From assembly GCF_003967195.1 (NCBI RefSeq), contig NZ_AP018725.1:1488001-1552000 (forward strand): DNA of 64,000 bases, given 5' to 3'. Position numbers and translations under genes: made by a program. Source of the stretch: Sulfuriflexus mobilis. Its GTDB lineage: Bacteria > Pseudomonadota > Gammaproteobacteria > AKS1. This document shows, in pieces, positions 38,759 to 41,660 of this stretch (within the stretch, counting starts at the first letter, position 1; each line of letters opens with the position of its first letter). The notes under the pieces were generated by a model. The model was given only the letters and a program-made list of their open reading frames with translations, made no database searches and had not been told where the DNA came from.

Positions 38759-39016
38759 TCATGCTTCCTTCTTGAGGCGATCATATATGGCTGCAGTATG
38801 ATGGATCGATTTTTTGTTAGTGGACTGCTGCTGTCGAATATAGGATTCGATGGCAAGTACAGCAACTGCCCTGCTTATGAAGGGGCCGTGATCAATCCCT
38901 TCACGCGTATTGAAGTACCAGCTGTTATTTATCGTGAATAAGCGCTGTGATCGAAATGCTGTTGTCTGTCTCTCACCATCGCGCAGTACTGTGTCCCATT
39001 TCATCGCAGTGTTCAT
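38759..39016 (-). CDS. DUF6316-like small protein
   Basis: An 85-residue protein with the core LRDGERQTTAFRSQRLF, then NNSWYFNTREGIDHGPF and a C-terminal helix. This resembles the DUF6316 family of gammaproteobacteria, function unknown. The ATG at 39016 has GAGGG seven bases upstream and is preferred over the ATG-like start at 39052. It is 40 bases after the first CxxC mini-protein gene on the same strand, so it is probably its operon partner. Confidence 0.6.
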   Translation of the reverse strand: MNTAMKWDTVLRDGERQTTAFRSQRLFTINNSWYFNTREGIDHGPFISRAVAVLAIESYIRQQQSTNKKSIHHTAAIYDRLKKEA

Positions 39017-39056
39017 ATTCTTTCCCTCTTGGTTACGTTTTGTATAGCCCATATGC

Positions 39057-39326
39057 TTACACTCTCATCAATACCTGTGCTTGATCGTCTTTTGTCTTCG
39101 GCTCGGTTTTCTCCAGCAATCTCTCAAGACCCTTCTGATGACAATCCGGGCACACATTATGATCTTCATGGGTTACGACCCAACCAAGCTTGCTGGCTTC
39201 ATGAATAGGCCCTTCATACCACGCGCGTCCGTCACTGATGCGGCGGCCAAAATGGTCGGCATTATGTATGCTGCGTATGGCCTGGGGGTTGCAGACATCA
39301 CAGAAGATAAATGTACGAATACTCAT
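39057..39326 (-). CDS. CxxC...CxxC mini-protein, paralog 1
   Basis: An 89-residue protein with MSIRTFIFCDVCNPQ, GRRISDGRAWYEG, EASKLGWVV and NVCPDCHQKGLERLLEK. The two CxxC pairs make a putative zinc ribbon. It shares the pattern [RT]F-F-C-x2-CNPx ... GRR-DGRxW[YF]EG ... EAS-x2-GWV ... G-x-N-LCPxCH with three neighbours at 39537, 39918 and 40354. I do not recognise a named family. A CRP-like palindrome lies 96 bases upstream. The DUF6316-like gene follows in the same direction. Confidence 0.75.
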   Translation of the reverse strand: MSIRTFIFCDVCNPQAIRSIHNADHFGRRISDGRAWYEGPIHEASKLGWVVTHEDHNVCPDCHQKGLERLLEKTEPKTKDDQAQVLMRV

Positions 39327-39394
39327 GACATCACCCGCCTGTATGTAATTTATACTGGAACACTTCAATTTTGTGTTCGCCTCAAGTTGAATAC

Positions 39395-39437
39395 AGTCTA
39401 GGCTCCGTTACAAAAATATGATGTGAGTTTTGCCACG
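39395..39437 (-). promoter_or_regulatory. CRP-like site and promoter of mini-protein paralog 1
   Basis: TGTGAGTTTTGCCACG (39422-39437) is a CRP-type palindrome with one good half (TGTGA) and one weaker half. On the minus strand, the -10-like hexamer TAGACT is at 39395-39400. Its position relative to the site centre is the same as at two sibling promoters, matching a class II activator site centred near -41.5. Confidence 0.6.
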
Positions 39438-39536
39438 TTGGCGGCCAATAATTGGCGCATGAAATCAGAACAGATAGTCTGCAGAGTGGTATCGCAGGGG
39501 TAAATACCAGAAACCCATTACAAGTTGTTGTTAGTA

Positions 39537-39722
39537 TTATTGTTTTTTAGCACATTTGAGACACAGGTTACGCCCGTCGTCGGTACTGACCCAGCCCAGT
39601 TTTGCTGCCTGATGGGCATGTCCCTCAAACCAGGCCGGTTGTCTGGCGGTGTTTTGTTCGTCTGCCCTACGATGGGCCCGTGGATTACATTTACCGCAAA
39701 AAACGAATGTTCGGGTGGTCAT
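39537..39722 (-). CDS. CxxC...CxxC mini-protein, paralog 2 (short form)
   Basis: A 61-residue paralog starting MTTRTFVFCGKCNPRAHRR and containing WFEGHAHQAAKLGWV and NLCLKCAKKQ. Both CxxC pairs are kept, but the GRR-DG segment and the GLERLL tail of its siblings are missing. The ribosome site is weak. A perfect CRP-like palindrome lies 78 bases upstream of the ATG. Confidence 0.7.
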   Translation of the reverse strand: MTTRTFVFCGKCNPRAHRRADEQNTARQPAWFEGHAHQAAKLGWVSTDDGRNLCLKCAKKQ

Positions 39723-39772
39723 AATGAAAATCTGCTTCTAGTGAACGTAAAGTAATAGACTTGTATAAGAAC

Positions 39773-39815
39773 AAGATATCTCGCCGGCTATCAGCAATAT
39801 GTGAGTTTTCTCACA
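39773..39815 (-). promoter_or_regulatory. Perfect CRP-like palindrome and promoter of mini-protein paralog 2
   Basis: TGTGAGTTTTCTCACA (39800-39815) matches TGTGA-N6-TCACA with perfect arms. On the minus strand the -10-like hexamer TATCTT is at 39773-39778, about 30 bases from the site centre, as in the two sibling promoters. This supports direct activation by a CRP-type protein. Confidence 0.68.
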
Positions 39816-39848
39816 CGGGGGAGGAAATTGGCTAGCGTGAAGATTTCA

Positions 39849-39898
39849 GGGAGAAACCCGGAGGCTTTCTGAAGCCGGCTGTAAAGCGCCGGTTTTAT
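39849..39898 (+). ncRNA. Candidate small structured RNA with terminator (plus strand)
   Basis: Three hairpins follow in series on the plus strand: GGG-AGAAA-CCC (39849-39859), GGCTT-TCTG-AAGCC (39863-39876) and CCGGC-TGTAAAGC-GCCGG (39875-39892), the last followed by TTTTATTT. The second and third share two bases, so they could be alternatives. No plus-strand gene precedes the terminator, so a short RNA is possible. A clear plus-strand promoter was not found, so confidence is low. Confidence 0.35.
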
Positions 39899-39917
39899 TT
39901 ATGAATAAGAGGAGATT

Positions 39918-40181
39918 TCACACATTCAGAACGACTTCTGTAGCCGCGGGTTCCACTTTTTTTTCGTCCAGTAACCTTTCCAGGCCCTTGGTATGACACC
40001 TTGGACACAGATTATGCCCCTCGCTGGTGCAGACCCAGCCGTTTTCGCTGGCCTCCTGTGGATCGCCCTCGAACCATGCGCGGCCATCTGCATAACGTCG
40101 CCCATACTGAGAACCGTTATCAATGGCACGGTTCCCCTGAGGGTTGCAGACATCACAGAAAATGAAAGTGCGTATGGCCAT
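39918..40181 (-). CDS. CxxC...CxxC mini-protein, paralog 3
   Basis: An 87-residue paralog with MAIRTFIFCDVCNPQGNR, YGRRYADGRAWFEG, EASENGWVCTSEGHNLCP and CHTKGLERLLDEKK. It has both CxxC pairs and the full-length pattern. The ATG at 40181 is preferred over a TTG two codons upstream. No good CRP-like site was found in the 172 bases before it, only a degenerate GTGATTGTCTCA near 40289, so it may be read from the promoter of paralog 4. Confidence 0.75.
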   Translation of the reverse strand: MAIRTFIFCDVCNPQGNRAIDNGSQYGRRYADGRAWFEGDPQEASENGWVCTSEGHNLCPRCHTKGLERLLDEKKVEPAATEVVLNV

Positions 40182-40302
40182 GTTCAATTCTATGCAACAT
40201 GCACGCCATTTATTAGCATTTGCTTATATTTCTGATAAGTCTTTATTTATATTGTTTATTTATGGATACGGTACGATTAGCCGGGATGGTGATTGTCTCA
40301 GC

Positions 40303-40332
40303 ATAGTGCATGGCTCTGGTGTCATGCACTAT
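40303..40332. repeat. 10-base inverted repeat between paralogs 3 and 4
   Basis: ATAGTGCATG (40303-40312) and CATGCACTAT (40323-40332) are exact complements around a 10-base spacer. It lies 22 bases downstream of the paralog 4 stop on the minus strand. No T-tract follows on either strand. It could be an mRNA 3'-end hairpin or an operator for paralog 3. Confidence 0.5.
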
Positions 40333-40353
40333 CCGAGGTATTGAGTGTAGACA

Positions 40354-40623
40354 TCAGGCACACCTGAGTAGCGGTATCGCGTGGTGCGGGGTTTGAACAT
40401 GTGTTTCAGCCAATATTTCCCCCAACCCCCTGGCATGGCACTTCGGACACAGGTGATGCCCTTCAGCGTTACTGACCCAGCCGCATTCACTTGCCTCACA
40501 GATATCGCCCTCGTACCAGGTACGACCATCATCGTTGCGGCGGCCATATTGGAAACCGTCGTTGATGGTACGGATCCCCTGGGGGTTACAGGCATCACAG
40601 AAAATAAAGCTACGTATGGCCAT
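40354..40623 (-). CDS. CxxC...CxxC mini-protein, paralog 4
   Basis: An 89-residue paralog with MAIRSFIFCDACNPQGIR, YGRRNDDGRTWYEG, EASECGWV and HHLCPKCHARGLGEILAE. It has the best ribosome site of the four (GGGAGGTGAGAGACC before the ATG). It is first in the series in transcription order and has its own CRP-like site 98 bases upstream. The 326-base gap to the divergent CRP-type regulator gene is shared. Confidence 0.77.
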   Translation of the reverse strand: MAIRSFIFCDACNPQGIRTINDGFQYGRRNDDGRTWYEGDICEASECGWVSNAEGHHLCPKCHARGLGEILAETHVQTPHHAIPLLRCA

Positions 40624-40693
40624 GGTCTCTCACCTCCCGTTTCTGAACGGATGTGTTGAATAAAAACGCATCAAATCTTCAAATATTGAGACC

Positions 40694-40736
40694 AGAGTAG
40701 CCTGATACAGCGCGGAATGATGTGAGAATTCGCACG
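40694..40736 (-). promoter_or_regulatory. CRP-like site and promoter of mini-protein paralog 4
   Basis: TGTGAGAATTCGCACG (40721-40736) has a perfect TGTGA half and a weaker second half. On the minus strand TACTCT (40694-40699) sits about 30 bases from the site centre, the same geometry as the other two promoters. The regulator gene starts 214 bases to the right, so the region may serve both directions. Confidence 0.62.
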
Positions 40737-40949
40737 ACCAGAGTCATAGCAGGCGGATAGTTCTATCCTGAACGCATAGAAGGTTATGGCAGCGGCCAGC
40801 GGGTACGTATATTATGGAGTGGTCAGAGAAACACTGGCACAAATATAGAACATGGTCGATACGGATTATCCCTCTGAACCTGAACGGATGCCGACTGGAT
40901 AAACAGTACTTATACTTATAGAAGATACTGCTTTGAGGATGACATCAAG

Positions 40950-41660
40950 ATGACGGATATTGTAAAGGTATCTCCAGCCATGATCGGTACGATCGAGGTA
41001 TTTCGGCAACTGTCGCAGCAACAACGCGAATCACTGAGTCCCCTCTTGAAAGCCCGAAAATATCTAGCCAATGAACACATTATTTCACGAGGCGATGACT
41101 CGAAAGATGTCTTTTTTATCGTCAGCGGTATGGTCAGAGTGACCAGCTATACGGCTGGAGGCAAAGAAGTGTCTTTCCGGGATATGTCAGCGGGCCAGAT
41201 GTTTGGTGAACTTTCAGCCATTGACGGCCAATCACGGTCTGCGGATGTGCTGGCCCTGACAGAGTCCGTACTGGTAGTGACGCCACCTGATACTTTCATG
41301 AGAATTTTACGTGACTACCCTGATGTGACCGAATTAATACTGCGACAGTTAACCAGGCTGGTCCGCAGTTTGGGCGATCGTGTTATTGAATTCAGTGCCC
41401 TGTCTGTAAAGAGCAGAATCCATGCCGAAATATTAAGACTCGCAAAAAAGAATATTCTGGATGATAACAGCGCAGAAATAGTACCTGCCCCGACGCATCT
41501 CGATATTGCGAATCGTATCAGTACACATAGAGAGGCGGTATCAAGGGAGTTCAGCGAACTATCCAGGAGTGGAATTCTACAGCGCGCAGACGGAAAGTTA
41601 ATCATCTATGATATGGCACGATTGGAAGGTCTTCTCGATGAAGTAAAAAGTGGGCCTTAA
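40950..41660 (+). CDS. CRP/FNR-family transcriptional regulator
   Basis: A 236-residue regulator. The N-terminal cyclic-nucleotide-binding fold keeps GEL (residues 86-88) and RSA (96-98), the phosphate-binding cassette positions of CRP. There are no cysteines, so it is not an FNR-type iron-sulfur sensor. The C-terminal winged helix has HLDIANRISTHREAVSREF; Arg194, Glu195 and Arg199 align with CRP Arg180, Glu181 and Arg185, which read TGTGA. It is divergent from four mini-protein genes, three of which carry TGTGA-type sites. Confidence 0.9.
   Translation: MTDIVKVSPAMIGTIEVFRQLSQQQRESLSPLLKARKYLANEHIISRGDDSKDVFFIVSGMVRVTSYTAGGKEVSFRDMSAGQMFGELSAIDGQSRSADVLALTESVLVVTPPDTFMRILRDYPDVTELILRQLTRLVRSLGDRVIEFSALSVKSRIHAEILRLAKKNILDDNSAEIVPAPTHLDIANRISTHREAVSREFSELSRSGILQRADGKLIIYDMARLEGLLDEVKSGP

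Follow-up and report, generated by a model that had tools for sequence, protein, structure and literature searches.

Which protein drives a tandem array of genes for very small cysteine-containing proteins, when a gene for a CRP-type regulator stands divergently beside it? The window analysed here is a stretch of 64,000 nucleotides, positions 1488001–1552000 of a 3.11 Mb single-contig genome. In the window, four tandem minus-strand genes (39057–40623) encode mini-proteins of 61–89 residues, each with two CxxC pairs: M1 (39057–39326, 89 aa), M2 (39537–39722, 61 aa), M3 (39918–40181, 87 aa), and M4 (40354–40623, 89 aa). A DUF6316 gene (38759–39052, minus strand) lies beyond M1, and a CRP/FNR-superfamily regulator, the candidate activator, is encoded on the plus strand (40950–41660). 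A sequence-only reading of this DNA had placed all of these genes correctly, and had proposed that the regulator directly activates the array. A fifth mini-protein gene, M5, is found at genome position 1908513, 380 kb off the array.

The sequence motifs listed earlier as common to M1–M4 are present, with exceptions that should be noted. M2 lacks the GRR-DG segment and has LCLKCA, M4 has RSF, and M1 has VCPDCH. Though it is shorter, M2 keeps all four cysteines. M1, M3, and M4 are 59–68% identical to each other over 66 residues, and their comparisons give pS values of 0.66–0.89 versus pN values of 0.17–0.24. With synonymous sites close to or beyond saturation and the protein nonetheless kept, these three genes are old, translated, and constrained. 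About six residues found in M5 and in relatives elsewhere are absent from M1, M3, and M4, and the simplest reading, which we infer from the sequences, is that the array expanded from an M5-like gene.

TGTGA palindromes are present ahead of three of the four genes, as had been noticed before, all on the minus strand. The M1 palindrome CGTGGCAAAACTCACA (39422–39437) has two mismatches to TGTGA-N6-TCACA and is centred 103.5 bases before the M1 start. The M2 palindrome TGTGAGAAAACTCACA (39800–39815), centred 85.5 bases before the M2 start, has no mismatch; the genome has six such perfect TGTGA-N6-TCACA places in all. The M4 palindrome CGTGCGAATTCTCACA (40721–40736) has two mismatches, and its centre precedes M4 by 105.5 bases and the regulator gene by about 221. 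The upstream region of M3 has no TGTGA site, and M3 is probably transcribed with M4 by read-through. M5 has no TGTGA site of two or fewer mismatches in the 350 bases upstream. The DUF6316 gene starts 4 or 40 bases past the M1 stop codon, depending on the ATG; the alternative start at 39016 has the better ribosome-binding site, with GAGGGAAAGAAT in front. The M1 transcript probably ends with this gene, and the suspected inclusion of the gene in the regulon is thus borne out as probable.

Each palindrome is followed on the minus strand by a putative −10 hexamer, TAGACT for M1 (39395–39400), TATCTT for M2 (39773–39778), and TACTCT for M4 (40694–40699). The promoters read CGTGGCAAAACTCACAT-N20-TAGACT, TGTGAGAAAACTCACAT-N20-TATCTT, and CGTGCGAATTCTCACAT-N20-TACTCT, respectively, and have CTCACAT-N20-TAnnnT in common. 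The spacing already described, with TAnnnT at bases 30–35 from the palindrome centre, is exact in all three. A class II site is centred at −41.5 (PMC7192510), and bases 30–35 from the centre of such a site are the place of the −10 element, so the geometry is that of class II. CRP/Vfr class II promoters of the gal P1 type likewise have a 16-bp TGTGA-N6-TCACA-like palindrome centred 41.5 bases before the expected start, and the array hexamers match them in position. The array differs in carrying three such promoters along tandem paralogs, in a half-site that is mostly TGTGAG, and in that its starts are predicted. Rfam gave chance matches only, and at the settings used the region upstream of the regulator shows no inverted repeat of at least 12 bases.

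Two proteins are candidates for binding these sites. The local regulator belongs to the CRP/FNR superfamily (PF00027, cNMP-binding, E = 6e-21; PF13545, Crp-type HTH, E = 1e-11). It is not a canonical CRP, scoring 64 bits versus the NCBIfam equivalog cut-off of 266. The canonical CRP/Vfr of the same genome (L010) scores 363 bits against that cut-off (NF008732), and its best PDB matches are Vfr and E. coli CRP. The two proteins are only 21% identical but have the same R-E-xxx-R residues in the recognition helix, which are R194, E195, and R199 in the local regulator. The presence of R-E-xxx-R, which had been taken to connect the local regulator with the TGTGA sites, therefore stands, while its power to distinguish does not: every one of the ten CRP-type proteins in the alignment has these residues, and the local regulator is not singled out by them. 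Of the phosphate-binding cassette, the local regulator has GEL and RSA. Its SLGD aligns with NTSR of L010, and the Thr127-Ser128 pair of the C helix, which contacts cAMP, is apparently not kept. The best full-length match among solved structures is Sinorhizobium meliloti Clr (7PZA, E = 5e-23). In the alignment, REAVSR of the local regulator corresponds to RPKVNR of Clr, and the site published for Clr, GTNNCNNNNGNNAC, differs from the TGTGA sites of the array (PMC10127613).

We favour, with about even confidence, the reading that the array is a class II regulon whose activator is most likely the canonical cAMP-CRP/Vfr, perhaps shared with the local paralog. A CRP-type dimer would bind the TGTGAG-N4-CTCACA-like sites centred at −41.5 at the three promoters, and would activate M1 (with DUF6316), M2, and M4 (with M3) by direct contact with RNA polymerase. 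The most likely dimer is that of the canonical cAMP-CRP/Vfr, which may share the sites with the local CRP-type paralog, and the 40721 site may in turn govern the gene of that local regulator. The products, predicted to be small C4 zinc-binding adaptors in several variants, would be made at high cyclic-nucleotide levels. Binding, activation, and the transcript starts are predicted here. Direct activation by the local regulator, as first proposed, is upheld as to the class II geometry, but not as to the activator, because a canonical CRP/Vfr with the same residues is also encoded. The shared residues, similar sites before other genes, and Vfr-like targets make CRP a candidate no weaker than the local regulator. 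The two mismatches in the M1 and M4 sites weigh against the favoured reading as a whole, and the divergent position of the local regulator favours that protein over CRP. With low certainty, we place CRP, alone or shared, slightly ahead. The locus is a natural setting for asking how a single set of sites is apportioned between two CRP-type proteins whose recognition residues are the same.

The sites elsewhere in the genome bear on this choice. The combined palindrome and hexamer pattern, with up to three mismatches, gives 14 genome matches versus two for the reversed control; only the three array promoters match it perfectly, the pattern having been drawn from those three. TGTGA-N6-TCACA at one mismatch gives 77 places per strand versus 36 in the reversed control, an excess of only about twofold, and many of the best genome-wide TGTGA places read lie inside genes. 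TGTGAGATTACTCACT with TAGCTT at class II distance (genome 591776–591818) lies before a LuxR-type regulator gene with autoinducer-binding and GerE domains, an arrangement that resembles the reported Vfr control of lasR. TGTGATGTCGGTCATA (genome 292883–292898) with TACTGT at class II distance lies upstream of a PilT-like gene, named from its sequence and not by family scan. In Pseudomonas, lasR and twitching are reported to be under Vfr control (PMC5449483), so targets such as a LuxR-type gene and pilT would be expected of CRP/Vfr. The best further match to the array pattern, with one mismatch (genome 1470131–1470173), precedes a gene for a 137-aa secreted protein without a Pfam match.

The strongest alternative, to which we give somewhat less than an even chance, is that the divergent regulator (40950–41660) is a dedicated activator of the array, reading TGTGAG half-sites and controlling itself from the shared intergenic region. 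Its divergent adjacency, with the 40721 site between it and M4, is in keeping with this, as is the presence of RE-xxx-R and, in the phosphate-binding cassette, of GEL and RSA. The regulator and the array are also both absent from three same-genus genomes, where the nearest CRP-type protein is about 28% identical. However, RE-xxx-R is common to canonical CRP and all aligned homologs, similar class II sites occur elsewhere in this genome, and a few comparable ones occur in the same-genus genomes that have neither the array nor a close copy of the regulator; class II TGTGA sites in these genomes are few, and their counts are near control. Nor is there a linked pair of mini-protein and CRP-type gene in 47 other loci of the family, described below. 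In two of the same-genus genomes, a class II-like TGTGA site lies before related lipoprotein-like genes of 143–148 aa (L158 and L167). In another genome (G039), one CRP-type gene (L161) also has a divergent class II site; it was set aside as a different arrangement, its partner gene being GST-like, with a likely start about 600 bases away.

Alternatively, the palindromes could be real and the regulator a repressor, or the start could be another one, with binding blocking RNA polymerase. TAnnnT resembles a −10 element only weakly, consensus scans find no sigma-70 promoter at the three array sites, and a palindrome that covers the −35 region can repress as well. A missing −35 and a weak −10 are, however, typical of activator-dependent promoters, and the spacing is exactly class II at three of three sites, so that we consider this reading improbable. 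On the plus strand, there is a weak sigma-70-like match at 40786–40815, by which the 40721 site would fall at about −92.5 relative to the regulator gene; shuffles yield matches of this kind at least as often.

In 2000 dinucleotide-preserving shuffles of the four upstream regions, sites of two or fewer mismatches in at least three of the four regions have P = 0.003, at least two class II arrangements occur in 0 of 2000 shuffles, and at least one occurs in 1%, these values being uncorrected for the locus having been picked beforehand out of 64 kb. When the promoters are aligned on the palindromes, 12–13 of 16 positions are identical inside the palindrome, whereas pairwise identity outside is near background (upstream 7–11 of 32, spacer 4–7 of 20, downstream 8–12 of 35). 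The palindromes at their fixed spacing are thus conserved amid diverged surroundings. With the flanks at background and synonymous sites near or past saturation, the kept palindrome and hexamer appear to be under selection and not to be recent copies, and the promoters of the array look real. It is therefore most improbable that these elements are functionless leftovers of tandem duplication, which could have copied promoters along with genes, or chance, for which the site P value alone, before allowing for the choice of finding, leaves some room.

We consider next what the mini-proteins may be. C9, C12, C59, and C62, which form the two CxxC pairs, are invariant in 48 family members, and Trp, Arg, and Gly residues are also conserved. 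These residues together suggest a C4 zinc site, and the mini-proteins may be small C4 zinc-binding adaptors. The description of them as zinc-ribbon-like is plausible as to the four cysteines, but no family or fold match reached significance: the best E values are 0.0045 for single members versus Pfam and 0.083 versus PDB sequences, and Foldseek with two AlphaFold models (pLDDT 77 and 81) gives best E values of 1.1 and 4.0. The second CxxC lies at the start of a helix in both models, and GATA-type fingers are among the non-significant fold neighbours. The two CxxC pairs, with the second at a helix start in the model, are features of C4 zinc ribbon and treble-clef proteins (FmdB, zf-FPG_IleRS, GATA type); the spacing of about 46–52 residues between the pairs and the absence of a significant sequence or fold match are not.

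The mini-proteins match no curated Pfam or NCBIfam model above the cut-off, in agreement with their earlier description as an undescribed family. A single-sequence scan of genome contigs for relatives found nothing, and a profile from eight members, scanned over one-genome-per-species assemblies, gave 47 other loci in beta- and gammaproteobacteria. The family is thus one without a curated model that occurs in many of these bacteria, including several methylotrophs and sulfur oxidisers. Marginal matches with E values of about 3e-4 to 9e-4 were set aside, two (L020 and L021) because they fall in the tail part of some larger protein of a different kind, and one (L022) because it runs antisense to a second gene. 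At the limits used, no relatives turned up in plasmids, phages, or viral contigs, and a phage or plasmid origin is unsupported. The three same-genus genomes have no mini-protein copy at the thresholds used, and no further close relatives of the genome surfaced.

The sequence-only reading would seek the pairing of a mini-protein gene with a divergent CRP-type gene in other genomes. None of the 47 loci showed a CRP-type gene within as much as 6 kb to either side, contig ends permitting, and no homolog of the local regulator has a mini-protein alongside. TGTGA sites of two or fewer mismatches are found upstream of five of the 47 members, about the chance level, and none has the class II TAnnnT. 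Mini-proteins without conserved TGTGA sites, which the sequence-only reading had itself named as evidence against it, are therefore what the 47 loci outside this genome show. The regulon, if it is a real one, is thus specific to this lineage, which the protein family is not. DUF6316 gives a similar picture. The neighbour of M1 is a clear member of PF19837 (E = 2e-18, 66.2 bits versus the gathering score of 28.5), but neither a mini-protein nor a CRP-type gene was found at 29 other DUF6316 loci (about 1.5 kb on each side), and TGTGA sites are not in excess there, those of two or fewer mismatches standing upstream of five of 29 genes (about chance) and none with the class II TAnnnT. The array offers a first regulatory handle on the family, in that its expanded form in one genome appears wired to CRP-type promoters, and such wiring opens the function of the mini-proteins to ordinary induction and deletion experiments.

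The gene contexts of the family vary by clade. In 16 Methylophaga-like loci (e.g. L055:6001-6219), a single-copy member lies between nrdR and ribD, and this constant position suggests co-transcription with riboflavin genes. Members in Methylomonas-type and some other loci adjoin genes for MSHA/type IV pilin, MshE-like, and PilC-like proteins, and in two loci (L027 and L028) the member is next to a PilT/PilU-like ATPase gene. Thiobacillus-like genomes have members in other places, for example by bacA or gpsA. These mixed contexts argue against one pathway-specific role for the family. Because relatives often adjoin MSHA/type IV pilus genes, the array could be imagined as a set of cyclic-nucleotide-induced zinc mini-proteins that serve as interchangeable adaptors, perhaps on surface pili, under a dedicated divergent regulator with its own TGTGAG specificity; we regard this combination as rather unlikely. 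A single one-domain copy is found in 45 of the 47 loci. The two exceptions, L057:769-1266 and L065:6001-6489, are fused double-domain mini-proteins with four CxxC pairs each, encoded near pilus-type genes.
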